Shown one piece after another: positions 2,127-33,179 of a DNA stretch of 64,000 bases. A program made the translations under genes and the position numbers. The notes beneath the pieces are model-generated. The model was not told the origin of the DNA and did no database searches. It saw only the letters and a list, made by a program, of their open reading frames with translations. Position 1 is the stretch's first letter. The number at the start of each line of letters is the position of its first letter. The DNA is taken from NCBI GenBank assembly GCA_015227615.1, contig JAALGZ010000022.1, positions 310,001 through 374,000 on the forward strand. Reading direction: 5' to 3'. The DNA is from Labyrinthula sp. Ha. Lineage: Eukaryota > Sar > Bigyra > Labyrinthulida > Labyrinthulaceae.

Positions 2127-2426
2127 AGTCAGACACTAAGCAGTCGAGTGTACGACTCTCTCCATACTGACTGTTTACACTTTACATAGTTATAATACAA
2201 TATTACATTACTGCACAATTGGTGCAACTTTACATAATACATTTTTACTAATACATAAGCACCGGAAACAACAGATCGTAAAACCTTAATATCTCAACAA
2301 CTACTGGGAGTTAGAAAACGTTACTTATATCATTTTAAAGCTCTTTTCAAGCTCTTTCAGTTTATTTTATTTAATATACGTATCCTCATACATATATAGA
2401 CGATACGGACAATTACTTGTCTAACT
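2127..2426 (+). repeat. 5' LTR of copia copy 1
   Basis: This is a 300 bp direct repeat matching 6891-7190. It is preceded by the target duplication CAAGT. It begins AGTCAGAC and ends GTCTAACT. A primer-binding site beginning TGGTTGCG abuts its 3' end at about 2426 and overlaps the start of the gag frame; the tRNA it would pair with was not identified. Confidence 0.92.
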
Positions 2427-2434
2427 TGGTTGCG

Positions 2435-5400
2435 ATGGAAGTAAACGAAAATCAGAGTGATCCCGTGGAAGAACGAACAGCACGGAGTGAAAACTCCAAC
2501 TTGACCCAAGGGGAAACTCATTTACAAAACTTTCCTGCTTCAACTACAACACTTACAAAGCTAGAAATTGCAAATGAAGCAATTAACGAAGAATTCTACA
2601 AGAAAGGACGAAAAAGATTGGAAAACCTTCTACGATCAAAAACTGATCAAAATCAATTCGAACTTCTGAAACAAGGTGTTGAGATGTACCTGCTTGCCTT
2701 AAAATTACAAATTAATGGAACATCTCTATGCAAATTTTTTAAATCTCATGATCGCAGCATCATTGATGAGCTGTTAGAATCTTACAATCCGCTTACTCAA
2801 AAATCTAACTACATTCTAGAGGAAGAAATTGACGATGAACTTTCAGATGACATCATTTCTCTTTGGAAAAAAGACGTTGTTTTCTTACGAACAATCCGAA
2901 CCCCACATCGTTTTTGCAAAATCCTGCGACGCATCGGGGCTGGTACATTCTTACCTACACAAACCAGAAAAAGAATTAACTTTGGAAACTTGATTTACAG
3001 CTGTTGGGAGGAATCAGAACCCATTACAGACTTCGTTAAACGCTTTGATTCTTTGGTACAACAGGCTAATCAGATCAAGATGATGCAAAATGACTCTGAT
3101 TTACTTACACTTTTTCAAACTAAGATTCTCTTCAGAAGAAACAACAATCAGAAAATTTTTACAGTTGTCAACAATTTGGATTCAAAAGATCTACCATTAA
3201 AGGATTACATGAGTGAAGTGGCACAAGCCGTACTTCAGCATGACAATTCAGGTTTGATCCCTTTTGATGCTCCAAGTACATCAGTTGTTGCATTTACAAA
3301 GAAAATTGTTTCTTCTAATTCAAAAGGTACATTGTGTTTCAATTGCGGTGAAGATTTTCTACACAAAGGCAAACAATGTGCTGCTAAAGGTGCTACCTGT
3401 TCTTACTGTGGCAAACCTAATCATTTTGCAAAGGTGTGTTCAACCAACCCAGAACGTACATTACAACTTCCCAAGATGAAGAAAAAACCAACAAAGAAAA
3501 CAGTAGCAGTAACATCTACAAAAGAAAATTTTAATCCTTTCAGTTTCGCTACTTCTCTTTGTACCACAGGTTCAAACTCTTTAGCTGGGCTGGATTCATG
3601 CAGCGATGTTTTCGTTTTTAGAAGCGCTGATTTTTTTACACACATGGATCAGAAGCCGGGTAAACTTACCCTTACAGAAAATTCTGGTAGCTACGAAAGC
3701 ACTGGAACAGCCAGATTTGCATTCAAAGAATTTCCTTCTAAGTTTTTTACAGTACAGGCAATTTACATGCCAAGTGCAAATTTCAACATTTTGTGTACCT
3801 ACGATCTAGAGCAACAGAATGTTAAAGTCAACCATCGTTCTAGAAATGTACAACTAGAAACAGGAAACAAATTAAAAATAATTTTACTTGGAAAGAAAAG
3901 CTTCATTGAAATCATTCCACTAGGGAAATCAGTCTTACAAACCTCTGATCCAAATCTAATGCATCGTAGATTGATGCATCTCTCAGAGGACAAACTTAAA
4001 CATGCTGGTTTCATTAAGGGTTCTCAAAAACTAAACAGCTGCCAAGTCTGTCTTCAGACAAAAGCTAAACACAACCCAGTGAAGAATTTAATTCACAAGA
4101 TGAAACTCTCTCCTGATTCCAAAGGTCAAGCTTTTTCAATGGACGTACTCATTCCGCCAAAACACTCGATGAAACCAGTCAATGGTGTTGTGGCTGCATT
4201 GATTTTAGTTGACCTGAAAACAAAATTAATTAGAGTTGCTCCTTTAAGAACACTTCAATCGAAAGATTTACTTGCAGCTCTTTACTACCTTCTTTCTACA
4301 CTCAAAACTTTACCAAAAACGATTGTTACAGACCGCCAATCTGGTTTTACGGCAGAACACTTTGTCAACTCAATTTCCGCAAAAGGCATTCATTTACGTT
4401 TTGTCCCTAGAGATCGACATGACACTTTCAATGGAGTTGCTGAACGAACGATTGGCATCTTAAAGGTCATGGCTTCAGCCGCCCTACTACAGTCTAAACT
4501 TGATGACTCCTTTTGGATCTACGCGGTCAAATTTGCAAGTTACATCAAGAACAGAGTGCATCACAAAACACTTGGTGAATCACCTTACAAACTAGAAACT
4601 GGGCAAGAACCAAACCTTTCTTCACTTAGAACCTTTGGTTGCTGTTGTTTTACGTTAAAATCTTCTGGAACGAAGACAAACAAATTTCAAGAAAGAACAG
4701 ACACTGGTCTCTTTCTTGGACTACAGGAACATTCAAGCTTCAACACAGCAATCATCTACAAACTTAGTACTGGAAAAATCATTTACCCTCAACTAACCGA
4801 TGTTTGGTTCCAAGAATCAAGAACACATGATCAAATCGATCAAAATCCACCAACTTTCTCATTTGGTGACATCAAAATTGTTGACAAAACTGAAAATGAC
4901 CCAATTTCTGAGGACGATTTTGAATCTGATGATGACGATGATTTCAGTCCAGATTTTGGTATACACTATGTACGTTATGGCCAGAAGGCAAATCAACAAG
5001 AAAATCATGATTTTGAGCATGATGATAATTTCGATGAAAATCCCCCTTCAGCAGATGTTCAACTCGATCAGGATCAAGATGCACATGATCCAACCCCATC
5101 TGCCGAAGTAACAAACCCTGAAACACCTCAAACGAGCGAAAACAGCAATGCTCGTCTACCAGTCACAACGCGATCTGGGAGAAATGCAACGAAATTCGAC
5201 CTAAATCGGATGTCAGCTTTCACGTTGAACACAACTGAAGAAACAACACACATCATCAAGCCTAAAACAAAAGGTCAGAAAGAAAAGCTACGGAAGAAGA
5301 TCATTCAGTCTAGAATTGATCAGAAACCTTCCATTTACCGTGACACAAGAGGTCACCCAGACGAAGCATCTTACAAGAAAGCGGTCGAAAAAGAGCTCAA

Positions 5401-6877
5401 AGCTTTGGAAGAACGAAAGGTTCTCAAAGTGATTAATCGCTCTGAACTTCCTGAAAATGCTTACGTTGGAAAATGCACGATGCTTGTGAAACAAAAACGC
5501 AATGGGAGTTTCAAAGCAAGATGTGTGTACAATGGAAGATCTCAGAAATTCAAAATTACACCTTACCGCAGTTCTCCTACCTTAGACTACAACAGTCTTG
5601 CAGTTGCACTAGCAGTTGCAGCTCGAAGACAGTTCCATTTTAACACTTTAGATGTTAGTACCGCATTCTTGTACGCGGATCTACCTGCTGGCACTACACT
5701 CTACTGTGAAATCCCTGATGGACATGAACTGAAACATGACAAGACTAAAGTAATGAAGATTGAGAAAGCGCTTTACGGTCTGAAGGAAAGTCCCAAGCTT
5801 TGGTTTGACAATGTTTCTGCTAAAATTCAAAAACTTGGACTCAAACAAGCAATCTTTGACGAGTGTGTCTTCTACAAGAAAGATTTAATTACTTTACTTT
5901 ACGTTGATGATGTACTGATGCTCGGTACAAAACAAGAAATTACAAACTTCTCAAAACAGTTTGGGAAAACTTACAAAATTACATTAGGATCACTAGATCA
6001 GAAAACAGACTTCTTAGGAGTTAACATTGAAAGAAAACCCAATGGAGACTACCAAATTGACCAAACCAAACACATTGAGAAAATTTTAGAAAAATTCAAG
6101 GATTTCAAGACTAAAGACAAATTTACACCATTACCTTCTACTTTCGCTGAGGCTGTTAAGAACAATTCCAATGCTAAAAGCATTAAATTTCCGTACAGAG
6201 AATTGCTTGGATCTTTAATTTACTTACGACTTACAAGATTTGATTTACTCTACGCATTACATGCGCTTAGTCAACTTTCTGAACACGTGACAAGTTTTGC
6301 AGTAAAGTCAATTCTCAACACATTAGGTTACATTAGTAGAACGAAACATCAAAAACGAATTTTTTACTCAGATCAATCAAATGGTGAAATTACACTTCTT
6401 GCCTTTTGTGATGCTGAATGGGCCTCTAACACACTTAACAGAAAAAGTGTTAGTGGTAACTTCATTTACTTTGGTCAATCGCTCATTACTGGCAGAAGTT
6501 CAAGACAAAGGACAGTTGCTACCTCTGCTGCTGGAGCTGAGCTGATTGAAATTTACAAAACAGCAAAACATTTGCAAGGAATCTACGGATTGTGCATGGA
6601 TTTAGATTGCAAAGTCAAGCTACCTTCAGTGATTTTTACAGATTCACTTAGTTCAACTAAAACCTTAGAAAAGACAGTTTCTCCAGAGCAAAAACACATG
6701 AGTGTTGCAATTCATTTCTTAAAAGGACTCATTCGTTCAGGAAAACTAAAGGTGATTTTCATCAAACGCGAATTCAACATTGCTGATCTTCAAACGAAAC
6801 AGAATCCAAGAGCTGAGTTTGAAAAACTTTGGAACATGACTCATTCAAGGATGAAGTGGCAGCATTTGAAGATCTAA
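2435..6877 (+). CDS. Gag-pol polyprotein of copia copy 1
   Basis: A single frame of about 1480 codons starts at the ATG at 2435, just inside the 5' LTR. Visible parts in order are: an acidic gag region; two CCHC-type zinc knuckles near residues 310-340 (the second is a canonical CX2CX4HX4C); a short protease region with LDS; an HHCC integrase zinc finger (HRRLMH...CQVC); an integrase core with D, D and E around TDRQSGF and FNGVAER; an acidic linker; a copia-type reverse transcriptase with YVDD; and an RNase H domain. Integrase preceding reverse transcriptase defines Ty1/copia. The frame looks whole. It is a mobile-element protein, not a host gene. Confidence 0.95.
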   Translation: MEVNENQSDPVEERTARSENSNLTQGETHLQNFPASTTTLTKLEIANEAINEEFYKKGRKRLENLLRSKTDQNQFELLKQGVEMYLLALKLQINGTSLCKFFKSHDRSIIDELLESYNPLTQKSNYILEEEIDDELSDDIISLWKKDVVFLRTIRTPHRFCKILRRIGAGTFLPTQTRKRINFGNLIYSCWEESEPITDFVKRFDSLVQQANQIKMMQNDSDLLTLFQTKILFRRNNNQKIFTVVNNLDSKDLPLKDYMSEVAQAVLQHDNSGLIPFDAPSTSVVAFTKKIVSSNSKGTLCFNCGEDFLHKGKQCAAKGATCSYCGKPNHFAKVCSTNPERTLQLPKMKKKPTKKTVAVTSTKENFNPFSFATSLCTTGSNSLAGLDSCSDVFVFRSADFFTHMDQKPGKLTLTENSGSYESTGTARFAFKEFPSKFFTVQAIYMPSANFNILCTYDLEQQNVKVNHRSRNVQLETGNKLKIILLGKKSFIEIIPLGKSVLQTSDPNLMHRRLMHLSEDKLKHAGFIKGSQKLNSCQVCLQTKAKHNPVKNLIHKMKLSPDSKGQAFSMDVLIPPKHSMKPVNGVVAALILVDLKTKLIRVAPLRTLQSKDLLAALYYLLSTLKTLPKTIVTDRQSGFTAEHFVNSISAKGIHLRFVPRDRHDTFNGVAERTIGILKVMASAALLQSKLDDSFWIYAVKFASYIKNRVHHKTLGESPYKLETGQEPNLSSLRTFGCCCFTLKSSGTKTNKFQERTDTGLFLGLQEHSSFNTAIIYKLSTGKIIYPQLTDVWFQESRTHDQIDQNPPTFSFGDIKIVDKTENDPISEDDFESDDDDDFSPDFGIHYVRYGQKANQQENHDFEHDDNFDENPPSADVQLDQDQDAHDPTPSAEVTNPETPQTSENSNARLPVTTRSGRNATKFDLNRMSAFTLNTTEETTHIIKPKTKGQKEKLRKKIIQSRIDQKPSIYRDTRGHPDEASYKKAVEKELKALEERKVLKVINRSELPENAYVGKCTMLVKQKRNGSFKARCVYNGRSQKFKITPYRSSPTLDYNSLAVALAVAARRQFHFNTLDVSTAFLYADLPAGTTLYCEIPDGHELKHDKTKVMKIEKALYGLKESPKLWFDNVSAKIQKLGLKQAIFDECVFYKKDLITLLYVDDVLMLGTKQEITNFSKQFGKTYKITLGSLDQKTDFLGVNIERKPNGDYQIDQTKHIEKILEKFKDFKTKDKFTPLPSTFAEAVKNNSNAKSIKFPYRELLGSLIYLRLTRFDLLYALHALSQLSEHVTSFAVKSILNTLGYISRTKHQKRIFYSDQSNGEITLLAFCDAEWASNTLNRKSVSGNFIYFGQSLITGRSSRQRTVATSAAGAELIEIYKTAKHLQGIYGLCMDLDCKVKLPSVIFTDSLSSTKTLEKTVSPEQKHMSVAIHFLKGLIRSGKLKVIFIKREFNIADLQTKQNPRAEFEKLWNMTHSRMKWQHLKI

Positions 6878-16596: not shown

Positions 16597-17781
16597 AAAG
16601 TAGTTAAGTTGGTTAAAGTTTAATATAAAGTAGATTTATTTTGCTATTTATTTTGTTTTTTCTTTTTTTTATCTATTATGAAATATTATAGCTTCTGTAG
16701 TAAGTCTAAGACCTACTCTGATTTTAGGATAAGACTTTGTGTGTATTTGTTTATTATTAACTTTATTGCTATAGATGAAGAAAATCAATATCTTGGTAAT
16801 TTTATTCATAGAGAATATTTTCGTTTTTAAATTCAGTACACCTTTTTACCAAAACAATAGATTCTTCTTCGGTAAACAAAATATCTGTGTGAATACTAAA
16901 AAAATATACTGAGTTTTATTTGTTGAAGCTGAACTTAACTTTTTAGTAAGCGAAAGTACATTTTTGAATAGAAATCTTCTTTTTTTCTAGTTGTTGGTCT
17001 AATAAAGTACCTTTCGATGTAGAACAGAAAAAGTAAGAAAAAAAACGTTCATGACATTTGGAAGATACGTGACAACTTTTAACTTTAGATAAAGCTTCTC
17101 TGTACAAGATAACACCATCAGGCAAAATTGTAGCTTTATGACAATACATATTTCTGTTTTTCACATATCCATCTTTAAAGATTTCACGAAGAAATTTTAG
17201 AAAATACCAAGTTCAAAGCAGCCTAAGATACATACCGAGAAAATATTTAAATGAACTAAGAGCTTCAAGAAAAAAAAAAGGGATCCAGAAAATAGAACCT
17301 AGACAAAATATAAAATCTCCAGTTTCTTCTTAATATTCCATAAATGAAGATAGCAAACAAGATTTTTTAAGATCCAAATTAGGAATATTTTTACCAGGAA
17401 CAATAGTTTTTATATTGTTTCTCGTGTAATTGATATTATTCTCTTCAGCAAACTCATCAATAGCCTCTAATACTTTATCTCTTGAAGAAATAAGATCAGG
17501 AAAAGAAGAAGAAAACATAAAAATATTTGTCGCATCATTGAACTAAAAAACTCTACTTTGTATTTCTTTTGAACAGGGGAAAGAAGAAGGCAATACGGAA
17601 AGAGGAATAAAAACAAGCTAATTTCTGGTTGAACCTCTCTTAAAGAATATTTCACAACAGAGAAATGGTAAGAATATACCAAATAGTAAATATTTTCATC
17701 ATAAACGTCGACAAATGTAACATTCTGAATGAGTTCTAACTATATCAGCTCAATATGAATCTACCCCTTGTTTTTGAGATT
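16597..17781. other. Intergenic, possible decayed gene on the minus strand
   Basis: Three adjoining minus-strand stretches (about 17467-17700, 17330-17518 and 16943-17190) have coding-like composition, including a Cys/His-rich piece with YCHKATILPDG and CHVSSKCHERFF. They could be exons separated by tiny introns or the remains of a transposase-like zinc-finger protein. No join gives a convincing protein and no family was recognised. No other feature is seen. Confidence 0.3.
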
Positions 17782-17946
17782 TGTACGTCTCTTCTTTTCT
17801 CTTATGCTTGCTTGAATTGAATTCTCTTAACAGTTAGTATTTCATTTTACCGATAGTACGTTTATTTCATATATTACAAGAAGGCACTAGGGACACAAGT
17901 CCGTGCGTGCAGTAGATGACGTGGCAACTAAGTTACTGGACGGACA
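17782..17946 (-). repeat. 3' LTR of the Ty3-like element
   Basis: A 165 bp repeat matching 25345-25509, apparently without differences. It begins TGTACG and ends GGACA on the plus strand. The methyltransferase frame stops 14 bp inside it. Confidence 0.92.
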
Positions 17947-19612
17947 TCCCCTCTTCTTCGAGTAGATCCTTCTCCAGTTGATAAATGTACCTCATGTCCA
18001 CCATGGGCAACAGGTCAATACCAATTGATGTCCACCTTGAACGTAGGTTATTTGATCTTGCAAAGAGTTCCACAGCATTAGCATACGGAAAAGTATGTTC
18101 GAGTATCGAGTAGAGTTTTTGAGGTTTACATGAATTGTTGAGCGGCTGAGTTATAATTGGCACGGAGCAGGATTTCCTATTTTCGTCGTTAAAAACATCG
18201 GAATACTGCAAGTCAACTGAAGTTTTTCTCTGGAATACCAGGCATAGTTCCTTGCAATGAGTTAAATAATGCCCCATCGAGTGCCTATACTTGCCGCTTG
18301 GGAATTTCTTAATCCAGGGTATATAATCTACTAGATAAAATTGTTGACTCTCCATCCATTCCAAACATCTGACAAAAGCCATGCTCACTGTCCGCAGCAA
18401 TAAATAACTTCCATAAGGATAATTTTTCACTGGAAAGGTCATAGCAGCTATCTGCTGCACGGCGAGTGTTGGATAGTCCAGCGCGATTCCACGAGTCGGG
18501 TTTTTTACCCCAGTGTTCCAAGGTGGGTCAAGTACACCAATCTTAAAGCGGTTGGGACTTTTCTTTAAACCTGGAAATCTGAAGTTGAACGCATCTCCTA
18601 AAATCGGTCTTGAATTTAAAGGTTCGTAGAAAATAGTTATTTCTTCGTTTTCAACAAAAGTCTTGAATTTATTCCCTCCTTCATAATAAAAGTCTGCTTC
18701 CACTTCGTTTTTAGGCTTGATCTTTAGTTTCAAAGTATCTAGGTCTTGTACTTGCACTGAGCCCTCTGAGCATCTATATGTTTTCTTTGTGACTTTACCT
18801 AAATGGGGTTCGTCGTTCCTAAAGCATACTAAATTTACGTGTAGATCGTTCAAATCCTTCAAAAGCTGGTTACATTTTAATAATAAAGTTTCCAATATAT
18901 CTGCGTAAGGCTTTGCTTTGAGGACTGCTCGTTGATTTGAATCATCGAATGCTCTAACTTCATCCTTTAGCATGTCCCTTGTTATGTTATTTAATTTTAG
19001 AAACTCCAACTGGTCTTCAGATTCATGCTCCTGCAATATCAGCTTTACGTGGTCAATATCAAACAATCGGCGGTAGTACAATACTTTCTGGTAAGTTGCG
19101 GCAAATTCTCCTATATTCCTAGAAATATGCTTTCGTAGCTGTTCATATTCTTGCTTTTCGATCGTAACCCCCGGTTTTCTTACTTTGTAATCCTTGCTCC
19201 CCCAGTATTCATCTAAATACAATCGCACTCTGTCTACATCTATTTTCAATCCATGTAAAAATCCAATGCTTTGAATGTTCAGTTGCTTCTGTATTTGAGT
19301 GTAAATTTGCTGCTTCGACCTATACGGGAGGATTCCTCGTTCCACGTAGCTTGAATACATTCCACAGCCCAACAGCTGGATAGCCGAATTCAATACTTCT
19401 TTCTCCTCAATCAACCAGCCACATGTTCTCGGCGTCTCGTTCTCTTGTAATAAGTGTAATCTTCTAGCTTTAATCGTTTTATTTTCCCTTTTATTAGGCT
19501 TTTTCCCGCTTTCTTCCTGTTCTTCTTTATCCCATTTCCAAAGATTGTGAAGGATGACTTCTTTCTCGAAGGAAGTCAGGTCGGAATCTCCTTTGATATA
19601 TCGGCGGATCAA
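17933..19612 (-). CDS. MT-A70 family adenine methyltransferase carried by the Ty3-like element
   Basis: A frame of about 559 codons lies between the integrase and the 3' LTR. The C-terminal 200 residues are an MT-A70 domain of the METTL3/IME4 type. The catalytic DPPW is at residues 362-365, followed by WIKKFPSGKYRHSMGHYLTH and HCKELCLVF, which match the WVK...TGHWLNHGKEHCLV block of METTL3. Near the end SCKPQKLY and AVELFARSNN match the SHKPDEIYG and IELFGRPHN blocks. Residues about 70-115 look like a Myb/SANT-type helical domain (GILPYRSKQQIYTQIQKQL). The enzyme class transfers methyl from S-adenosylmethionine to the N6 of adenine in RNA or DNA. The frame looks whole over the domain. No ATG lies near its 5' end, so its product may come from a longer precursor or an internal start. 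Confidence 0.85.
   Translation of the reverse strand: MIRRYIKGDSDLTSFEKEVILHNLWKWDKEEQEESGKKPNKRENKTIKARRLHLLQENETPRTCGWLIEEKEVLNSAIQLLGCGMYSSYVERGILPYRSKQQIYTQIQKQLNIQSIGFLHGLKIDVDRVRLYLDEYWGSKDYKVRKPGVTIEKQEYEQLRKHISRNIGEFAATYQKVLYYRRLFDIDHVKLILQEHESEDQLEFLKLNNITRDMLKDEVRAFDDSNQRAVLKAKPYADILETLLLKCNQLLKDLNDLHVNLVCFRNDEPHLGKVTKKTYRCSEGSVQVQDLDTLKLKIKPKNEVEADFYYEGGNKFKTFVENEEITIFYEPLNSRPILGDAFNFRFPGLKKSPNRFKIGVLDPPWNTGVKNPTRGIALDYPTLAVQQIAAMTFPVKNYPYGSYLLLRTVSMAFVRCLEWMESQQFYLVDYIPWIKKFPSGKYRHSMGHYLTHCKELCLVFQRKTSVDLQYSDVFNDENRKSCSVPIITQPLNNSCKPQKLYSILEHTFPYANAVELFARSNNLRSRWTSIGIDLLPMVDMRYIYQLEKDLLEEEGMSVQ
17947..17959 (-). other. Polypurine tract of the Ty3-like element
   Basis: On the minus strand the 13 bases GAAGAAGAGGGGA directly precede the 3' LTR. 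This is the place where LTR retroelements prime plus-strand synthesis. It lies inside the methyltransferase coding end, so the captured gene has been fitted around an essential replication signal. Confidence 0.8.
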
Positions 19613-20309
19613 ATTTGGGATTCGTTTGTATATTTCCTATAGTGGGTGCCAGCTATTTTTTGGTATCTTCAAAACCTAACCATTTTATTAGTACTTCGTA
19701 TTCTGGTCTGCGTGTTTCCGTTAGCTTGATTCCAATGATCTTCTCTGCTTCTAAACTGCCTAAATTCTGAATAAAAAGGGTCTAAGATCTTTATAATTCT
19801 TTGGACGCTTTCTGCTATAGAACCAAAGTCTTTATGCGTGCGCTTCGTATCTCTTTCCGGTTATGGTTTCCAATTCATACACATCTAAGGAGATAATTCT
19901 TGTTATCCGGTAAGGCCCAGTCCAAAACCAAAGCCGTTTTCGTTTTCTCCCTCGGCGTCCCTTCACTGGAGAGCATGACAAAATCTCCGGGAGTAAATTG
20001 GACTACCATTTTAAAATTCTTATTCTTTCTTGCCAATTCGAGCTCCCTAGATAGCTTTACATGGTCATTAATCATGTCCAACCTTTCGTCGATTTTCTCT
20101 TGTATCTTGGCTGTATTGATCTTGACTTACTCGATGTCCTTTGGCTTCAACGTCTTGTCTTGGAGCGTGATCCAAAAACGTCTCGATTCCTGTTCCAGGG
20201 TCCCATAAGTTAGTTTTAAATTGAAAAATAGTTCATCAGGCGTATAATCTTTTCGTCGAGGATTAGGGCGATTGTTAATAAGATACGATATATGCTGTAC
20301 AAGTCTTGG

Positions 20310-21800
20310 TCACTCTTCCTCATTTAGAGAATATTCAGAACATAACACTATTAAGTAGTGTAAAATCTTGGAATTGCCAACTTCTATATACCCGTTTGTC
20401 CATGCGCTGTATGCTATAGTGAAGGACTGTTCAAAGTTGAGTGCCCTTGACAGCAGTTCCATCGTTTGGTTTGCAAAATGACTGGCATTATCTGTTACTA
20501 GTCCGAATTCTGGGAGTAAACCAAGTGTACTTCTCCATAGCAGTATAGCGTCACGGATTCCTTCTGCGTTGGCTTTTTTACAGTAGGTCAACAGGGTCTT
20601 TCGAGTGCAGTTATCGATGACTGCCAAGATGTAGCCTTGGCTGTTAACGTAGAGGTAGTCCGCGTGTAACAATTCCCGCGGCTTATTCGTCAGGAAGGTT
20701 AAATTTAGCGGTCTTCTTAACAGCTTCGGAGATCTATTGCAGTTTAAACATCTGCGCCTAAAAGAGGATATGAGAAGATTTAGATTCTTGCGTGTCAGCC
20801 CTTCAAAGTAGTATTTGTGCAGGAATTTGAGTTCATCTGCTTTTAAAGGGTGTCCTTTTGAAATATGATTTGTAATTAATATTCGCGTAATGAGAGATCT
20901 CGGGATAACTAACATCCTCTTAAAATAGAGGAGTCCATCTTTCAGTTCCATATCCTTCTTAATGCTGGGATCCATTTCCTTCTGTTTTTGGCTCAAAATT
21001 GATTCCTCCAGCGGATCATAATGTTCCCCAGAGTAATACGGACTAACAAAAGAGAGCGGGTGTTGATCCAGCGAAGATTTTAGATCCTTAATGTGGCCCG
21101 GAACGGTAGTTTCTTTTGCTGTCATCACTTCGATATTCTTACCCAGATTTTCGGTGGCTTTAATGCTCGATGCATCCCCTTCTTCTTCACCCTTTTTCTC
21201 CCTATCATCGGCTTCTTGCACGGACAACTGTTTTACCTGAATAGAATCTAAAATGTGTTCCACTTGGGCATTGAAGCAGGAAATGGTTCTCTCTAATGAA
21301 TCTCCATCGACTTCTGAAACTAGTGATGAAGAATTCAGAGAACTGCTCATGTCGTTAAATGCTATTCTTCTTGCTTCTAGTTGCTCAGGTTGGGCCCATC
21401 GTGAAAGTAAATTTGCTAGAAAGTTTTCGCGAGTGCTTATATGAAATACAGTCATTTCCAGCGATTGCAGCTTTAGGGACCACCTGAATAGACGGTCCAT
21501 ATACACCTTCGTTTCCTTTTCCCCTGGCCTTAGTATCGCTAAAAGAGCTTGATGATCCGTATATAGGAAAATACCAGCTCTGTGAGTCCTGATCATAAAT
21601 CCGACTCTTTCAAAACTATATAGAACAGAGTATAATTCTTTGGAGCTTATATTCCATTTCCTCTGTGGGTCAGTAAATGCTCCAGGTAAGAACAGTAAAG
21701 GTTTCGGGCGCAAAGTTTTGATGTCGTTTGTGACGTTTTCGGGCTCGTCCTGAAGTAAGGCTAAACTCCAGGCTTCACTGGAAGCGTCTGTGAATAACAA
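20310..21800 (-). other. RNase H and integrase region of the Ty3-like element
   Basis: The first part shows a Ty3-class RNase H (LLFTDASSEAW, SSKELYSV, TDHQALL). An integrase follows: an HHCC zinc finger (H...H then CLNC), a core with HADYLYV, LVTDNASHF and a glutamate in NGYIEVGN. A small C-terminal integrase-like piece with FTPGDFVMLSSEG lies just beyond, near 19875-20081. Treated as part of a fossil element. Confidence 0.85.
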
Positions 21801-23077
21801 AAGAGGCTTGTCGCGATCGTAGTTTTCAAAACCGAGTTTGTTGCTTTAGCTATTTCTTCCAGTAGCTTCCTAAAATTGGCTCTTAAATCTTCAGTCCATT
21901 CCACTCTGATTTGCTGCTTTTCGACTTCCTTTAACTTTTCCCCTTCCAAATTTATTAGCGGCGCAAATGGTATCCTTAGCCTCGCCATGTTTGGCACTGC
22001 TGGGCTAAGCCAGTTTGCCAGATATATTATCTGCGCGAGCTCATGCTTCATATCGGGGAATGATGCTTTCGGAATTTTATCGAAATATTTTTCAGCGAAG
22101 TTCCATCTACCGTCGAATAGATTTCTACCGCACCATATCGTTTCTTCTCGCACCCATTCACACTTTTTTAGGTTGAAGCCAACTCTCTTTTCGACAGCGT
22201 TATCAAGGATCTCCGTCGTCATGCTTAGCAAACTATTTATATCGTTGCTGTAAAGAATTATGTCGTCTAGCCAGCAGCATGCTCCAGTAGGGTCCCTGTT
22301 AAAGTGTTCCCATATCACTTCGGTAACTACCCGCTCAGTAAATAGTTGAGGAATATTACACCAACCCATGGGCGCACCCAGCATAGTAAATGCGCGCTTC
22401 CTGGTAACCAGGGTGAATATTTCCTGAGAGCTCTCTTGGGTGGGAAGGAAATCAAAGCCAGATAAAATGTCCATTAAGATATAGCAACGCGATCCTTTTA
22501 GGTGACGCATCTGTCTTTCAAGGTTAGGGAGATCCAGTGGGGATCTGATGGCGAAGTCGTTGAGCTTTTTCATGTTAACTACCATCCGATACCTATGCAG
22601 TAGATTATCGGATTCCCACTGTTTCTTTTCTGAGATGTCCCATTCTGCGAACCCCACAGGTTTCTTGATCTTTTTTGGGACTACGAATACTGGGGAGCCA
22701 AACCTGGGATTTTTATTCTTTTTCACTATCCCTGCAGATTCCAGCGCTTGGAACTTCTTGGCCAGAAAGTCCTCCTCCTCATCCGTGTGGTGGTAGCCTG
22801 TAGCTACAATGGAAGGGTGGTTCGGTTTTAGATGACATTTTATAGGGGATAATAAAGACATCTGGGCATTTGACTGGTGAATTCCAAAGGCATTTATCTT
22901 CTTTACCATTAAACTTCTCAACTTGTCTTTATCCTCGTCCCGTAAAGTGCACATATTCATGTGATCATCGATCAATTCTAGTAGAAGGGCTCTTTCATCC
23001 TCTTTCTTGATTTCAGCTTCCCCTATTCCTATTTCCTGAAAAGGTTCGGGTATTTCATCCAGAATATTGGGGACCAA
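21761..23077 (-). other. Reverse transcriptase region of the Ty3-like element
   Basis: Ty3/gypsy-type reverse transcriptase. Conserved blocks include FGSPVFVVPKK, RMVVNMKKLN, YILMDILSGF and the active-site strand CWLDDIILYS, in which the usual tyrosine of YxDD is Trp-Leu. It is followed by the connection to RNase H. A further short piece of the same polyprotein lies at about 23096-23464. Confidence 0.85.
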
Positions 23078-23762
23078 AATGGGCTTTACATCTATTTATT
23101 TTCCTTCGAACTCAGCTAATTCATCTAAATACGTTGTCCCTACTCGGGAAAGTGGTATAGCCTCTAGTCTCTTTACACTGATTTCCTGCTTGCTGGATTT
23201 TTCCTTGGAACTTTGATAATAAAATTTCATGTGAAGGGGAACAGGATAAATCAGCTCCTGTATAATATTCTCGAAACTATGCTCTAAATCAACATTTTCG
23301 AAAACATCTCCACTTTTTTGTAAGTTTAGGACCATATCCATGCTAACGCGCTTGAACAAAAGCAGCGTGGTGTCACAATGTAAAAACAACTCAGCTCTAC
23401 TTTCCTTCTTCTCGTCTTGAACAAAAGTAATAGATTCGATAAACTTATAGCCTTGTAAATTCAAAGATTTGGTAAAGCATATCCAGTTTGACGGCTCTGT
23501 AATTATTGCAACAAATTCTTCGTCAAACTTTATTATAGCTGATGGATCCTTACACAGGTGGGCTCATATATCAAAGCGGCCCTTATTTTCTGCGGTTTTA
23601 TTTCAGGGAAGTCATCTTTTTGGGTTTTCGATTCAGGTGAAGGGGATTTAATAATGTTCTTATCCAGCTCCTTTGCGTTTGTGCCCCCAATGGCTGGCTT
23701 AGGACCGGGACTGCTAAATCCGCTCCCGCCTATATCCTAGTGCTGCTTATTCGTTTCAAAAG

Positions 23763-25331
23763 CTAGCTGAATTCCATGTGCGTCCAAGGTTTTTTGCCGA
23801 TTAGAAGGTCCTTCCAGTTTTGGTCGTTTGTTAAAAAAACGAGCTGCGTTCCAAGGTCCTTTTTCTTTCCTTTTTGCAGCATTATGTGGATTCTCGCTAC
23901 CTTGTATACAGGAATGAACGAATCATCTGGAAACGTAATATGCGTGATCACCCTTGGATTCTCCTCTTTCAAAATAAATGGCTTCATTAGCGAATATGAA
24001 CCAATGTTCCTGAGGGTCCCTGTATCTGGACATCCATGGACTATCTTGAACTGATTTGTTGCCCTTTCCTTGCAAAGAACTTGTATTTCCAAAATCTTTT
24101 TATCGGAGATTTTATTGCAGGATAACTTTTTAACTCTGGTCTTCTTATTATCCATAGGTTGGTGAGACACGACTCCTTCATCTTCTAACGACCAGTTTCT
24201 ATCGTTCGCCAACTTTTTCAGGTATTTCAATTGCTTTAACTTTGGTTTAGTGTTGAGCATATCCTTGGTAATCCTTGACTTTTTTGGCAGTTTATCTATG
24301 ATGATCTTCGCAATAGTTTTTTCATTTGCTTTTCTCTCTTCCATATTTAAGTCAGCTAGAATAATTTTTGCGTTGTCAAAGAATGTATTCACCTGGTCAT
24401 CCAACCCCAATTCTTTCGAAGGCCAACGGAGCTTATCTTTTAACCTCTTCAAAGCTGTCATTTTATTGGATCTTGAATGTCTTCTTGCAAAGTGCTCCAG
24501 ATATTTAAGTACATGAGCTGGTCTGAACATATCTACGTTTCTGGTTCGCAATGCTTTCGTAGCATTAATACTGAGGTAAGATCGAACATCTGCGTTTGCT
24601 ACGGTACTTCTGAAAGCCTTAAATTCATGGAGGAACTCCTCTACCTTTGGTCCTGTTATCTCTGAGAGTTTAGCCATATTGAGTGTAGTTAATGAAATAA
24701 GATTTGCAGGTGCAGGATATCCATTGCTTTGGAAAGGTACCGAAGCTTGAGTCCCATGATCTTCGCGCGACTTCGCATCAGCTTCGTCCAATGTTATATT
24801 TGCTTCAGTTAACAAAGATAAGGTTCTAACGCTTTGAATAAGTGATTCTACGGAGTCAGAATGTTCAGAGTCTTGCTCGGTCGTTTGATCCGCAGCTTCA
24901 TCTTCTTCTCGCTCTTCATCGGGAACCGGCGCTTGCAAGGGATCGACTCCTCTTTGCTGCGTATCCTGCGGAGCAGGCATTACTGTCAAATTCTTTCTTT
25001 TTAGATACTTATCAAGCTCTTCCTCCAATCTGCGTTCCGCATCCGAAGAGGTGTATATTTTCCTTCCCTGAGGAGCTTGCCTTGGGGTAGATACACCTGT
25101 TCTCCTAAGCGATTCTGGAGTGACCGATGCAGGGAGTCCTTGAGGAAGGTTTCCTGACTCGTCAAGAGGCTGATTTTGTGTAACTTCTTCGGATGAAGCC
25201 ATCGGTTTTTTCTTCTGCTCTTCATCTTCTCCAAAAGCCACTTCTTGCTCTTCGGTAGGAGTAGGTGGAGTGTAAGGTAGATTTGGGTCTTTATCTTTGT
25301 CTTCGCGTGGAGTAATGAAGGACATTTCCAC
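23763..25331 (-). other. Gag and protease region of the Ty3-like element
   Basis: A 522-codon frame starts just inside the 5' LTR. It begins with a charged, Pro/Gln-rich segment, continues with a helical, capsid-like stretch rich in Lys and Leu, and ends with a retropepsin-like segment carrying DTGT in HGCPDTGTLRNIG. No zinc knuckle is visible. Treated as part of a fossil element. Confidence 0.75.
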
Positions 25332-25344
25332 GTTATTCGAATAA

Positions 25345-25509
25345 TGTACGTCTCTTCTTTTCTCTTATGCTTGCTTGAATTGAATTCTCTTAACAGTTAG
25401 TATTTCATTTTACCGATAGTACGTTTATTTCATATATTACAAGAAGGCACTAGGGACACAAGTCCGTGCGTGCAGTAGATGACGTGGCAACTAAGTTACT
25501 GGACGGACA
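25345..25509 (-). repeat. 5' LTR of the Ty3-like element
   Basis: A 165 bp repeat matching 17782-17946. Directly inside it (25333-25344), where a primer-binding site is expected, lies the perfect 12 bp palindrome TTATTCGAATAA rather than a TGG-type site. Confidence 0.92.
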
Positions 25510-25991
25510 GATGGTTCCCTTTGTTTTACTGTGGTATTGCACCATTGTGTTTCAATAATATATTCTTTTATTTTTATTCAAACTTTTATAAATATATTTT
25601 GTTGTAAAATAAACCCTTATATTTACTAGTAAAAGATTTATGAATAAATATTTATAAGAATATATAAAGTTAGTTTTTCAAAAGCGTCTATATAGCACAT
25701 TTTAAGCATATATATTTTTTTACATTTCTTATTTGAAAAAACAAATTTCCTGGCTAAATTGAGGTCAGTTACATATCCTTTTTGCACTTGTGTTTAATGT
25801 ATAGATTTAATGTATTTTAAATATATAATATAGAGCTAAAACAAAATATATCTATATTATTTGTATTATAAAAAAAAGAAAATTTACTTTGTTATTTCTT
25901 AGTGTGTAAGTAAGAGAAGTATTTTCTTTCGAGAAAAAAATATCATGACTCTGCTTTAAATCTTAAATACATAAACTTTTTTATTCTTATT
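25510..25991. other. Intergenic, 0.5 kb
   Basis: Very AT-rich sequence between the Ty3-like element and the 3' end of an eight-cysteine gene. Nothing recognisable was seen beyond probable 3' untranslated sequence of that gene. Confidence 0.6.
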
Positions 25992-26579
25992 TTAGTTTAA
26001 AATTCCATTTACCATAATATTAATAAGAGTAATAACTCCACCTAATCCAACTGCTGAAAAAGAAACTGCATCACCAGTAACTTCATTGAATACTTCACAT
26101 ACATCATCCAATACCAACTCACATCCAAACTGTCCTGCAGTCTCAGTTAATGCCTCTGCTACTTCAACTTCATTAGCTTCACAAAACCCTTCTTCACAAT
26201 CGAGTTTACAGAAAACCTGTCGAGGTAATACTTCAAGAAACTCTGGAGTGCATAATCCAGGTTCACCCAAGAGACCTGTAAGCTCCTCAGCTTTTTGTTC
26301 AAGAGATAACTCATCATTGCCGATAATTTCATTAAACTGATCAATTTCTTCATCAGATAAACCTTTAATTATCTCTATTATAGCGTCTATTAATTCAGAA
26401 CGACAATCTTGAACATCCTCATATTCAGCAAGTTCACATTCTTGACGAATTGAAGTTACTCTAGTGCCCCTAATTACCATATTATTGAGAGCATTTGCGA
26501 CATTCTCAATATGAAGAGCTCTATTGTATAAACCTTGAACAAACATAGGTGCAAATCCAAGTAAATATTGAAACTTCAT
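25992..26579 (-). CDS. Small eight-cysteine protein, family unknown, paralog 1
   Basis: A 195-codon intronless gene with ATG at 26579. I do not recognise the family. The N-terminus MKFQYLLGFAPMFVQGL may be a short signal peptide or anchor: one Lys followed by a hydrophobic stretch. The middle is acidic and helical. Eight cysteines lie at residues 48, 59, 110, 124, 128, 133, 153 and 161 and are conserved in the paralog at 27634-28218. The C-terminal 20 residues are hydrophobic (VGLGGVITLINIMV), which could be a membrane anchor or a GPI signal. Even cysteine number and acidic character suggest a disulfide-bonded protein outside the cytosol, but that is inference. Both paralogs share a T-rich 5' leader and lie on the same strand about 1 kb apart, as expected of tandem duplicates. 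Confidence 0.85.
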   Translation of the reverse strand: MKFQYLLGFAPMFVQGLYNRALHIENVANALNNMVIRGTRVTSIRQECELAEYEDVQDCRSELIDAIIEIIKGLSDEEIDQFNEIIGNDELSLEQKAEELTGLLGEPGLCTPEFLEVLPRQVFCKLDCEEGFCEANEVEVAEALTETAGQFGCELVLDDVCEVFNEVTGDAVSFSAVGLGGVITLINIMVNGILN

Positions 26580-27633: not shown

Positions 27634-28218
27634 TTAGTATATAGCTAAATTTACAAAAATATCAAGAACTGAAACTAAACTTGCAAAAATAACTCCAGTC
27701 AATCCTTCAGCATCACCAATAATATCATAAAAAGCTTCACAAACAGGATCTAGTATCAATTCGCATCCAAAACCTGCTGCAAGAACTTCTACTGCCGCTG
27801 ATAATCCATATTCATTTGCTTCACAATATCCATCATCACATTCGTAAGTACAGAAAACTACTTGAGGTAAAGCCTCTAAAAACTCTGGAATACATATTGT
27901 AGGATTACTCAAAAGAGAAATAAGTTGTCTAGCTGTTTCTTTAACACTGTTAGAAGTGGCATAAATTTCATACATTTGTTTAATTTCTTCATTGGATAAG
28001 TCTTTAATAAACTCCTCAACAACTTCAATAAAATTAGAAGCACAATTTACAATATCGTCGTATTCAGGAAAAGAACATTGTTGATGAATTGAGTTTAAGC
28101 TAGAATTGCTTATTTCCATATTTTTAAGAGTATTTGTAACATTCTCAATATGAGGAGACCAATTTTCTAAACCTTGAACAAATATAGGTGCAAATCCAAG
28201 TAAGTATTGAACTTTCAT
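27634..28218 (-). CDS. Small eight-cysteine protein, family unknown, paralog 2
   Basis: A 194-codon gene with ATG at 28218, collinear with paralog 1. MK(V/F)QYLLGFAP and FVQGL at the N-terminus are nearly unchanged, as are the blocks PEFLEALP, FCTYECDDGYCEANE and FGCELILDPVCE. Eight cysteines occur at residues 48, 59, 109, 123, 127, 132, 152 and 160. The middle of the protein is more divergent than the cysteine-rich half, which suggests that the disulfide framework is under selection. The C-terminus is again hydrophobic. Function unknown. The second copia element begins 198 bp upstream in the same orientation, so its LTR could drive or disturb this gene. Confidence 0.85.
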   Translation of the reverse strand: MKVQYLLGFAPIFVQGLENWSPHIENVTNTLKNMEISNSSLNSIHQQCSFPEYDDIVNCASNFIEVVEEFIKDLSNEEIKQMYEIYATSNSVKETARQLISLLSNPTICIPEFLEALPQVVFCTYECDDGYCEANEYGLSAAVEVLAAGFGCELILDPVCEAFYDIIGDAEGLTGVIFASLVSVLDIFVNLAIY

Positions 28219-28716: not shown

Positions 28717-31700
28717 CCATGCGGTCTTTTTAGATCTTCAAATGCTGCCACTTCATCCTTGAATGAGTCATGTTCCAAAGTTTTTCAAACTCAGCTCTTG
28801 GATTCTGTTTCCTTTGAAGATCAGCAATGTTGAATTCGCGTTTGATGAAAATCACCTTTAGTTTTCCTGAACGAATGAGTCCTTTTAAGAAATGAATTGC
28901 AACACTCATGTGTTTTTGCTCTGGAGAAACTGTCTTTTCTAAGGTTTTAGTTGAACTAAGTGAATCTGTAAAAATCACTGAAGGTAGCTTGACTTTGCAA
29001 TCTAAATCCATGCACAATCCGTAGATTCCTTGCAAATGTTTTGCTGTCTTGTAAATTTCAATCAGCTCAGCTCCGGCAGCAGAGGTAGCAACTGTCCTTT
29101 GTCTTGAACTTCTGCCAGTAATGAGCGATTGACCAAAGTAAATGAAGTTACCACTAACACTTTTTCTGTTAAGTGTGTTAGAGGCCCATTCAGCATCACA
29201 AAAGGCAAGAAGTGTAATTTCACCTTTTGATTGATCTGAGTAAAAAATTCGTTTTTGATGTTTCGTTCTACTAATGTAGCCTAATGTGTTGAGAATTGAT
29301 TTTACTGCAAAACTTGTCACGTGTTCAGAAAGTTGACTAAGCGCATGTAACGCGTAGAGTAAATCAAATCTTGTAAGTCGTAAGTAAATTAAAGATCCAA
29401 GCAATTCTCTGTACGGAAATTTAATGCTTTTAGCATTGGAATTGTTTTTAACAGCCTCAGCGAAAGTAGAAGGTAATGGTGTAAATTTGTCTTTAGTCTT
29501 GAAATCCTTGAAGTTTTCTAAAATTTTCTCAATGTGTTTGGTTTGGTCAATTTGGTAGTCTCCATTGGGTTTTCTTTCAATGTTAACTCCTAAGAAGTCT
29601 GTTTTCTGATCTAGTGTTCCTAGTGTAATTTTGTAAGTTTTCCCAAACTGTTTTGAGAAGTTTGTAATCTCTTGTTTTGTACCGAGCATCAGTACATCAT
29701 CAACGTAAAGTAAAGTAATTAAATCTTTCTTGTAGAAGACACACTCGTCAAAGATCGCTTGTTTGAGTCTAAGTTTTTGAATTGTAGCAGAAACATTGTC
29801 AAACCAAAGCTTGGGACTTTCCTTCAGACCGTAAAGTGCTTTCTCAATCTTCATTACTTTAGTCTTGTCATGTTTCAGTTCATGTCCATCAGGGATTTCA
29901 CAGTAGAGTGTAGTGCCAGCAGGTAGATCCGCGTACAAGAATGCGGTACTAACATCTAAAGTGTTAAAATGGAACTGTCTTCGAGCTGCAACTGCTAGTG
30001 CAACTGCAAGACTGTTGTAGTCTAAGGTAGGAGAACTGCGGTAAGGTGTAATTTTGAATTTCTGAGATCTTCCATTGTAAACACATCTTGCTTTGAAACT
30101 CCCATTGCGTTTTTGTTTCACAAGCATCGTGCATTTTCCAACGTAAGCATTTTCAGGAAGTTCAGAGCGATTAATCACTTTGAGAACCTTTCGTTCTTCC
30201 AAAGCTTTGAGTTCTTTTTCGACCGCTTTCTTGTAAGATGCTTCGTCTGGGTGACCTCTTGTGTCACGGTAAATGGAAGGTTTCTGATCAATTCTAGACT
30301 GAATGATCTTCTTCCGTAGCTTTTCTTTCTGACCTTTTGTTTTAGGCTTGATGATGTGTGTTGTTTGTTCAGTTGTGTTCAACGTGAAAGCTGACATCCG
30401 ATTTAGGTCGAATTTCGTGGCATTTCTCCCAGATCGCGTTATTACTGGTAGACGAGCATTGTTCTTTTCACTCGTTTGAGGTGTTTCAGGGATTGTTACT
30501 TCGGCAGATGGAGTTGGATCATTTGCATCTTGATCGTGATCGAGTTGAACATCTGCTGAAGGCGGATTTTCATCGAAATTCTCATCATGCTCAAAATCAT
30601 GATTTTCTTGTTGATTTGCCTTCTGGCCATAACGTACATAGTGTATACCAAAATCTGGACTGAAATCATCGTCATCATCAGATTCAAAATCATCCTCAGA
30701 AATTGGGTCATTTTCAGTTTTCTCAACAATTTTGATGTCACCAAATGAGAAAGTTGGTGGATTTTGATCGATTTGATCATGTGTTCTTGATTCTTGGAAC
30801 CAAACATCGGTTAGTTGAGGGTAAATGATTTTTCCAGTACTAAGTTTGTAGATGATTGCTGTGTTGAAACTTGAATGTTCCTGTAGTCCGAGAAAGAGAC
30901 CAGTGTCTGTTCTTTCTTGAAATTTGTTTGTCTTCGTTCCAGAAGATTTTAACGTAAAACAACAGCAACCAAAGGTTCTAAGTGAAGAAAGGTTTGGTTC
31001 TTGCCCAGTTTCTAGTTTGTAAGGTGACTCACCAAGTGTTTTGTGATGCACTCTGTTCTTGATGTAACTTGCAAATTTGACCGCGTAGATCCAAAAGGAG
31101 TCATCAAGTTTAGACTGTAGTAGGGCGGCTGAAGCCATGACCTTTAAGATGCCAATCGTTCGTTCAGCAACTCCATTGAAAGTGTCATGTCGATCTCTAG
31201 GGACAAAACGTAAATGAATGCCTTTTGCGGAAATTGAGTTGACAAAGTGTTCTGCCGTAAAACCAGATTGGCGGTCTGTAACAATCGTTTTTGGTAAAGT
31301 TTTGAGTGTAGAAAGAAGGTAGTAAAGAGCTGCAAGTAAATCTTTCGATTGAAGTGTTCTTAAAGGAGCAACTCTAATTAATTTTGTTTTCAGGTCAACT
31401 AAAATCAATGCAGCCACAACACCATTGACTGGTTTCATCGAGTGTTTTGGCGGAATGAGTAAGTCCATTGAAAAAGCTTGACCTTTGGAATCAGGAGAGA
31501 GTTTCATCTTGTGAATTAAATTCTTCACTGGGTTGTGTTTAGCTTTTGTCTGAAGACAGACTTGGCAGCTGTTTAGTTTTTGAGAACCCTTAATGAAACC
31601 AGCATGTTTAAGTTTGTCCTCTGAGAGATGCATCAATCTACGATGCATTAGATTTGGATCAGAGGTTTGTAAGACTGATTTCCCTAGTGGAATGATTTCA

Positions 31701-33179
31701 ATGAAGCTTTTCTTTCCAAGTAAAATTATTTTTAATTTGTTTCCTGTTTCTAGTTGTACGTTTCTAGAGCGATGGTTGACTTTAACATTCTGTTGCTCTA
31801 GATCGTAGGTACACAAAATGTTGAAATTTGCACTTGGCATGTAAATTGCCTGTACTGTAAAAAACTTAGAAGGAAATTCTTTGAATGCAAATCTGGCTGT
31901 TCCAGTGCTTTCGTAGCTACCAGAATTTTCTGTAAGTGTAAGTTTACCAGGCTTCTGATCCATGTGTGTAAAAAAATCAGCGCTTCTGAAAACGAAAACA
32001 TCGCTGCATGAATCTAGCCCAGCTAAAGAGTTTGAACCTGTGGTACAAAGAGAAGTAGCGAAACTGAAAGGATTAAAATTTTCTTTTGTAGAAGTTACTG
32101 CTACTGTTTTCTTTGTAGGCTTTTTCTTCATCTTGGGAAGTTGTAATGTACGTTCTGGGTTGGTTGAACACACCTTTGCAAAATGATTAGGTTTGCCACA
32201 GTAAGAACAGGTAGCACCTTTAGCAGCACATTGTTTGCCTTTGTGTGGAAAATCTTCACCGCAATTGAAACACAATGTACCTTTTGAATTAGAAGAAACA
32301 ATTTTCTTTGTAAATGCAACAACTGATGTACTTGGAGCATCAAAAGGGATCAAACCTGAATTGTCATGCTGAAGTACGGCTTGTGTCACTTCACTCATGT
32401 AATCCTTTAATGGTAGATCTTTTGAATCCAAATTGTTGACAACTGTAAAAATTTTCTGATTGTTGTTTCTTCTGAAGAGAATCTTAGTTTGAAAAAGTGT
32501 AAGTAAATCAGAGTCATTTTGCATCATCTTGATCTGATTAGCCTGTTGTACCAAAGAATCAAAGCGTTTAACGAAGTCTGTAATGGGTTCTGATTCCTCC
32601 CAACAGCTGTAAATCAAGTTTCCAAAGTTAATTCTTTTTCTGGTTTGTGTAGGTAAGAATGTAACAGCCCCGATGCGTCGCAGGATTTTGCAAAAACGAT
32701 GTGGGGTTCGGATTGTTCGCAAGAAAACAACGTCTTTTTTCCAAAGAGAAATGATGTCATCTGAAACTTCATCGTCAATTTCTTCCTCTAGAATGTAGTT
32801 AGATTTTTGAGTAAGCGGATTGTAAGATTCTAACAGCTCATCAATGATGCTGCGATCATGAGATTTAAAAATTTGCGTAGAGATGTTCCATTAATTTGTA
32901 ATTTTAAGGCAAGCAGGTACATCTCAACACCTTGTTTCAGTAGTTCGAATTGGTTTTGATCAGTTTTTAATCGTAAAAGGTTTTCCAATCTTTTTCGTCC
33001 TTTTTTGTAGAATTCTTCGTTAATTGCTTCATTTGTAATTTCTAGCTTTGTAAGTGTTCTAGTTGAAGCAGGAAAGTTTTGTAAATGAGTTTCTCCTTGG
33101 GTTAAGTTGGAGTTTTCACTCCGTGCTGTTCGTTCTTCCACGGGATCGTTCTGATTTTCGTTTACTTCCATCGCAACCA

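Follow-up and report, generated by a model that had tools for sequence, protein, structure and literature searches.

Cytosine DNA methyltransferases (DNMTs) and Dam methylases captured by retroelements are already known, and their role there is unclear. DNMTs have been described in Gypsy elements, long interspersed nuclear elements (LINEs) and DIRS, the last of which also include elements with Dam-like enzymes (PMC5890265), and a Sola transposon is reported to carry a ParB-linked N4/N6 methylase (PMC12477816). For the ciliate writer of N6-methyladenine (6mA) in DNA, MTA1 is described as the catalytic subunit and p1 and p2 as contributing to the DNA channel, none of the four subunits being dispensable (PMC9174199, PMC9852454). 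A survey of 18 unicellular eukaryotes reports that robust 6mA accompanies AMT1 and is a mark of chromatin permissive for transcription, and that the MT-A70 families have been relatively static after early eukaryotes (PMC12695648). Here we analyse a 64,000-nt stretch of Labyrinthula sp. Ha DNA (contig JAALGZ010000022.1, positions 310,001 to 374,000; hereafter the window), in which a long terminal repeat (LTR) retroelement of Ty3 type, at 17782-25509, carries an MT-A70 methyltransferase (MTase). The predicted product is a fusion of integrase, chromodomain, p1 and AMT1, and we lean, with slightly better than even confidence, to the view that the element belongs to a diversified group of Ty3-type elements with a Pol-terminal DNA-adenine methylation module acting on the element's own DNA.

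Results

Positions refer to the whole window, in which the element reads on the minus strand (Table 1). The MTase open reading frame (ORF) matches Pfam MT-A70 with an E value of 2.9e-14 (53.8 bits for a cut-off of 23.9). A first-pass annotation, made from the letters of the window, had taken this enzyme to be of METTL3/IME4 type, and this is the claim that our comparisons overturn. Such elements were read from five sequence lineages in this genome: A, the window's; B (L009-L015, L045, L046); C (L041, L044); D (L042, L047); and E (L043, L048), the last four being read from pieces of loci. In phmmer searches of PDB sequences, Tetrahymena MTA1 matches the window protein at 93 bits and METTL3 at 40, and single sequences from three other lineages agree (MTA1/METTL3 bits: B 133/109, E 126/82, C 120/55). 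The A2 profile, which covers all lineages in 12 rows, one of them the host AMT1, matches MTA1 at 1e-76 (residues 47-372), METTL3 at 6e-46, METTL14 at 9e-22 and 7cv6 at 7e-18; the latter, named Methyltransferase-like protein 2 in the PDB, we take to be METTL4. The assignment among MTA1, METTL3, METTL14 and METTL4 is one by PDB match score. The host's own stand-alone AMT1 frame, at L016, gives 249 bits with MTA1 and 127 with METTL3.

The N-terminal part of the same ORF points to the second component of the ciliate writer. The A2 profile matches p1 at 4e-22 over residues 13-257, and p1 is also matched by single sequences (window 1e-9, B 3e-16, E 3e-13, C 8e-8). When the lineage B segment is searched alone, about 140 residues of p1 are aligned (E 4e-17) and the next other match has an E value of 0.73; in lineage E, TRF-type Myb domains reach 0.004 or worse, and in lineages A and C the alignment covers only about 70 residues. 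Genome-wide, 114 of 135 p1-like matches have an MT-A70 within 2.5 kb downstream, the other 21, candidates for a host p1, having none close by. This p1-like segment (residues 63-129), the chromodomain that precedes it and the commonness of the arrangement in the element group had all been missed by the first-pass annotation.

Since MTA1 outscores METTL3 and p1 is matched, the frame is best read as a p1-AMT1 fusion, and the combination of an AMT1-type enzyme, a p1-like segment and a chromodomain moves the likely target from RNA to DNA. A METTL3/IME4 identity was rejected, METTL3 standing behind MTA1 in four lineages and in the A2 profile, and Pfam listing no zf-CCCH in the polyproteins or pieces scanned (window, L027, L034, L038 and others). 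The enzyme could instead be an RNA N6-methyladenosine (m6A) writer marking the element's genomic RNA or host mRNAs, with consequences for translation, packaging or escape from decay. METTL3 is indeed among the MT-A70 enzymes, and RNA methylation may be of consequence for such elements, to judge from the m6A RNA demethylase described in a Ty3/Gypsy element of an orchid (PMC9289625). However, the MTA1 scores in all four lineages tested, the resemblance of the partner domain to DNA-binding p1 and the lack of a CCCH zinc finger in what was scanned make an RNA writer unlikely in our view.

Within this genome, the p1-MTase arrangement occurs widely in the element group. In the 50.8 Mb searched (153 contigs), the MTase query has at least 83 matches and Pfam MT-A70 has 150 scored matches among 354 candidates, 33 of the 150 lying in open frames of at least 1,690 amino acids. 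Merged, and with 14 further matches, these lists give at least 207 distinct MT-A70 loci, one of which is the host AMT1; the count is of MT-A70 matches, whether inside an element or not. As a side observation, the cytosine DNA-methylase family PF00145 is found, by contrast, at only two loci (C77:362853, C121:1129060), and a search for a chlorophyll-binding family gave no match.

We fetched 20 of the first 24 other matches to the MTase query, so that this sample is selected for having the MTase. Paired LTRs are present at 19 of these loci (154-295 bp, 84-100% identical, at least 97% in 15 of the 19), and 18 of the 19 show gag, reverse transcriptase (RT), integrase and MTase in order by tblastn; L026 has lost most of its integrase and L035 is cut by a contig end. 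A single open Pol frame of 1,904-1,968 amino acids occurs in 6 of the 20, none that long being listed in the others, and TG..CA ends with a perfect 4-bp target-site duplication in 10 of 20 elements (the 19 loci plus the window). Counting from RT to MTase tests the opposite direction: among 95 RT loci similar to that of the window, 89 are followed downstream on the same strand by an MT-A70, which lies at 3.2-4.8 kb in 87 of them (99 of 112 RT matches were typed, the remaining 13 being weak matches beside typed ones). The chance expectation for such pairing is about 1%, by arithmetic from 207 loci, half per strand and a 6.5-kb reach. Three of the six unpaired RT loci have a p1-like match downstream (C1:1322438, C121:991871, C132:310075).

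The enzyme also largely shares the history of its carriers. In 18 elements, RT and MTase trees have 10 of 15 splits in common, for a mean of 0.34 and a maximum of 3 in 1,000 label shuffles, and three splits found in only one of the trees have support above 90; L023, L024 and L029 were left out for their fragmented frames. Because the two trees largely agree, the MTase has been mostly inherited with the element. Beyond the nucleotide matches, the protein-database relatives are at least 11 proteins: P0001, listed without a source, and ten gene models from EukProt that share one style of name. P0008 and L038 are 100% identical in the part searched and other models resemble fetched loci by eye, so that these polyproteins appear to belong to the same species as the window. 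Models P0008, P0010 and P0011 have AED values of 0.45-0.48, which may indicate that they are backed by evidence. None of the proteins listed is recognisably from another species, in a word-based search whose limited sensitivity implies no absence elsewhere, and none of 37 pattern matches in viral contigs was confirmed.

That a host AMT1 was trapped once between LTRs, or that the locus is an assembly artefact, has in our judgement a negligible probability. A stand-alone AMT1 does exist in the host, but the MT-A70 locus count, the RT pairing, the LTR pairs and the agreement of the trees all speak against such an event, and it was rejected on these four; that polyprotein also occurs among EukProt models, which speaks against it too, although they may derive from this very assembly. 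The MTase is part of the element and not a nearby host gene, and it is an adenine-type parallel to the captured cytosine and Dam methylases, as the first-pass annotation had proposed. The two outcomes it had named as fatal to this proposal, other members all lacking the frame or a host gene trapped once, were both looked for and did not occur.

In three scanned open Pol frames (L027, L034, L038), Pfam gives the order RVT_1-RNaseH-rve-Integrase_p58_C-Chromo-MT-A70. The RT of L027 is closest among PDB sequences to 8r0s ('Enzymatic polyprotein', E 2e-21), Ty3 Gag-Pol (7e-19) and 4ol8 (1e-17), others being weaker. The window element is classed as an LTR retroelement of Ty3 type by its domain order and LTRs. 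The chromodomain is in frame in L027, L034, L038 and the relative P0002 (PF00385). Lineages B-E likewise show the order chromodomain, p1-like segment, MT-A70 wherever the piece is long enough, although several single Chromo or Myb matches fall below the Pfam cut-off. In lineages B, D and E, the p1-like segment and the MT-A70 are separated by a segment resembling an aspartic protease (LLDSGA / ILDSGA), which is above the Pfam cut-off in L043 only, below it in L009 and L042, and recognised by eye in L011 and L047. As the domain order is shared across lineages, the sequences favour a single capture rather than two. In the enzyme tree, lineage C groups weakly with host AMT1 and MTA1 (89/87), and a clade of host AMT1 and MTA1 apart from all element enzymes is not rejected (approximately unbiased test, p-AU 0.43; L022 was left out, its VPPW not being found by the script as a DPPW-kind motif).

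This architecture also admits the possibility that the module acts mainly on host chromatin or genes, the chromodomain aiming the writer at silent chromatin to open insertion sites or counter silencing. In the lineages read, integrase and MTase do have the chromodomain and p1-like segment between them, and the chromodomain of lineage C resembles HP1/CBX5 (E 1.4e-6). However, a chromodomain at the integrase end is also described in methylase-free Ty3/Gypsy elements (PMC5348765, PMC12477816), so that no link to the MTase is needed, and chromodomains are reported to have been gained independently in other Gypsy lineages (PMC12477816). We find a main action on the host improbable.

The catalytic motif is largely kept. 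Of the 20 fetched lineage A loci, 19 retain the catalytic Asp and 17 the exact DPPW, which is also the motif of the window and of lineages D and E. The Asp is present too in all rows of A1 (15) and A2 (12), two sets whose rows were chosen for intact frames. Taking the residue roles from the description of MTA1 (PMC9852454), the Ser332 equivalent is found in 15/15 rows of A1 and 11/12 of A2, that of Asn360 in 15/15 and 12/12, and that of Arg357 in 13/15 and 11/12. As the first-pass annotation had advised, we compared nonsynonymous and synonymous substitution rates (dN/dS) among copies. The ratio for the p1-MTase frame is 0.06-0.25 in the 7 of 14 pairs with dS below 2 (six of the others have infinite dS, and L041/L044 has 2.9), and the frame is thus under purifying selection where this is measurable.

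The layout of the window copy is given in Table 1. One family of direct repeats only is found in 17000-26500, two copies of 165 nt that are 100% identical, in agreement with the LTRs first annotated. Also borne out are the RT, RNase H, integrase and MT-A70 domains, by Pfam matches of which rve (E 1.4e-7, 32.1 bits) is slightly below its cut-off of 32.6, and the run of the MTase frame through the polypurine tract to a stop codon at 17935-17933, inside the 3' LTR. The annotated gag stands as a gag-like ORF; the retropepsin stays putative, being read from a DTG motif at 24026-24018, near the C-terminus of that ORF. Since the LTRs are identical, they point to a recent insertion. The target-site duplication of 4 bp is imperfect (CATC/AATC, 3/4 match), and Pol is broken into several frames between 23464 and 19612, the MTase frame itself being intact. 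Broken Pol between identical LTRs would therefore mean that a defective template was copied, or that the assembly contains small errors.

Table 1. Features of the element in the window (all positions window-based)
Feature	Position	Strand	Remarks
5' LTR	25345..25509	-	165 bp, TG..CA ends, identical to 3' LTR
12-bp palindrome TTATTCGAATAA then CGT	25333..25344	-	directly after 5' LTR, at the expected primer-binding site position
gag-like ORF, 522 amino acids	23763..25331	-	similar ORFs in 19/20 fetched loci; no match in Pfam scan
122-amino-acid frame between gag-like ORF and RT	23096..23464	-	tblastn matches in some fetched loci only; no match in Pfam scan
RT frame	21761..23077	-	Pfam RVT_1 at residues 160-316, E 7.9e-13
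RNase H and integrase core frame	20310..21800	-	RT_RNaseH at residues 2-113, E 1.3e-12; rve at residues 372-465
Chromodomain region, approximate limits	19615..19755	-	out of frame with the MTase ORF in the window copy
p1-MTase ORF, 559 codons	17933..19612	-	no internal stops
p1-like Myb/homeobox-like DNA-binding domain	19226..19426	-	MTase ORF residues 63-129; match to p1 of MTA1c, E 1e-9
MT-A70 domain of AMT1/MTA1 type	18020..18547	-	residues 356-531; DPPW at residues 362-365
Polypurine tract GAAGAAGAGGGGA	17947..17959	-	within the MTase frame, directly before 3' LTR
3' LTR	17782..17946	-	holds the last MTase codons and stop

A 12-bp palindrome followed by CGT stands at the end of the 5' LTR in 20/20 elements (window 25330-25344; L021-L034, L036-L040). 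It is perfect in 15 of them, and four variants stay palindromic by matched changes: ATATTCGAATAT, TATCTCGAGATA, TAATTCGAATTA and TTACTCGAGTAA. Lying where a transfer RNA primer site is expected, it has a possible role in self-priming or in RNA dimerisation. L031 and L033, both on contig C2, share the same 12 bases before the 5' LTR and differ in their 3' flanks, which hints at duplication or recombination between copies. Elsewhere in the window there are two closely similar Ty1/copia-type ORFs, at 2417-6877 (+) and 28730-32722 (-), in which Pfam lists no methyltransferase domain. Next to the element lie two similar cysteine-containing ORFs of 195 (25992-26579) and 194 amino acids (27634-28218), both on the minus strand, the 195-residue one having no match in its Pfam scan.

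Discussion

How could a Pol-terminal module of this kind serve the element that carries it? Made as part of Pol, the fused module would be packaged with integrase and enter the nucleus alongside it and the new cDNA, and it is because it would travel with integrase that we propose self-methylation around integration. There, the fusion would stand in for p1 and MTA1, which are separate subunits in the host-type writer, MTA9 and p2 being provided by the host or not needed, and would methylate adenine at N6, probably in ApT, in the element's own DNA, either before integration or after it. The mark might then hold the new copy in transcription-permissive chromatin and so favour expression of the element. 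Through its chromodomain the writer may be drawn to chromatin whose histone tails are methylated; since p1 is reported to have a PHD domain, a histone reader, in ichthyosporeans (PMC12695648), a chromodomain before p1 would be an analogous reader-writer layout. We infer element DNA as the most likely substrate, and an effect of methylation in favour of the element.

Several observations weigh against self-methylation. The ciliate writer needs four subunits, and the element proteins have no convincing MTA9 or p2 segment, the p2 match being weak (E 0.1, lineage E); the chromodomain could serve integration targeting alone; and in Trichomonas transposable elements are reported to show no enrichment of 6mA (PMC12695648). 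RT and MTase are also less often paired in a more distant set of RT loci. Among 33 typed RVT_1 matches of lower score and greater distance (out of 150 listed, the higher-scoring ones looking like LINEs, as seen for L017 only), 19 are paired and 14 have no listed MT-A70 downstream, which brings the two RT lists together to 101 of 120 loci paired. Of the MT-A70 loci, at least 207 in all, 106 have no RT beside them among the matches listed, which lean to the window's lineage. Then, the dN/dS of the MTase lies above that of RT (0.06-0.09 in 5 usable of 11 pairs); being low yet above RT, it suggests an enzyme selected for function, less strictly than RT. An AlphaFold2 model from 10 sequences had a mean predicted local distance difference test score (pLDDT) of 51.3 and a predicted template modelling score (pTM) of 0.35, and was not used.

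The catalytic motif itself varies. It is VPPW in L022, a decayed copy whose LTRs are 88% alike, DPTW in L023 and DPSW in L032; VPPW in the EukProt model P0003 and DPLW in P0005; and DPAW in lineage B and DPPY in lineage C, in the copies whose motif was read (L009-L015; L041, L044). Among residues contacting S-adenosyl methionine (SAM), no element row of A1 or A2 retains the N370 equivalent, and those of D182 and E371 are kept in only 3/15 and 3/15 rows of A1 and in 6/12 and 4/12 of A2. Such changes, above all DPAW, DPPY, VPPW and the altered SAM contacts, would fit a methylase that is no longer an enzyme, its p1 and MT-A70 fold being retained for DNA binding or assembly, in the manner of METTL14 or MTA9. 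However, the catalytic Asp is conserved as described above, as are the equivalents of Ser332 and Asn360, and MTA9 is described instead with an eroded NALW motif (PMC9852454). We rate a dead enzyme as quite unlikely, and retain an active module methylating the element's own DNA as the reading that we prefer.

A bolder version of this preferred reading can be put forward, tentatively and with the balance somewhat against it: a whole Ty3-type radiation would carry a one-chain reader-writer (chromodomain, p1 and AMT1) that reads silent chromatin or its own DNA and writes permissive 6mA on the element, countering silencing, the core of the four-subunit writer working as one polypeptide. If this were true, a single polypeptide could do the core work of a four-subunit eukaryotic 6mA writer. 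Independently of this, the fusion offers biochemistry a natural single-chain p1-MTA1, and whether a mobile element writes a permissive adenine mark on itself becomes a directly testable question.

We found no LTR element with MT-A70/AMT1 or p1 in the literature searched, where coverage of subscription papers and bioRxiv is thin. In all five lineages read, the captured module looks like the DNA-6mA writer of eukaryotes joined to the partner that binds DNA. Mobile DNA may thus carry a chemical DNA mark of its own, and these elements run against the static picture of MT-A70 families drawn in the survey (PMC12695648).

The system closest to the element is Tetrahymena MTA1c (MTA1/AMT1, MTA9, p1, p2), a DNA-6mA writer whose MTA1 and p1 are the closest PDB matches of the element's MT-A70 and N-terminal parts, and whose catalytic Asp, Ser332, Asn360 and Arg357 have mostly kept equivalents there. 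The element differs from the ciliate complex in having p1 and MTA1 as one chain, behind integrase and chromodomain in a polyprotein, without convincing MTA9 or p2 segments, and in its N370, D182 and E371 equivalents. KnitGypsy-Dnmt3 of Klebsormidium nitens is likewise described as Gypsy-type and under purifying selection, its Pol containing a DNA methyltransferase (ratio of nonsynonymous to synonymous rates, Ka/Ks, below 0.2), but that enzyme is a cytosine Dnmt3, the repeats are arranged as in DIRS, and no p1 is described in the part of the source available (PMC5890265). DIRS elements with a Dam-like N6-adenine methylase share the adenine chemistry; they are tyrosine-recombinase elements with a bacterial Dam-type enzyme (PMC5890265, PMC6338049), whereas here LTRs and integrase accompany a eukaryotic MT-A70. 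The Phalaenopsis Ty3/Gypsy element with an AlkB m6A RNA demethylase has also captured an adenine-methylation enzyme, reported as an RNA eraser in a separate ORF (PMC9289625), in contrast to a DNA-type writer inside Pol. Finally, chromodomain Ty3/Gypsy elements (chromoviruses, Chronos and Ectocarpus lineages) are described with the chromodomain directly after integrase (PMC5348765, PMC12477816), as in the window's group, where p1 and AMT1 come after it.

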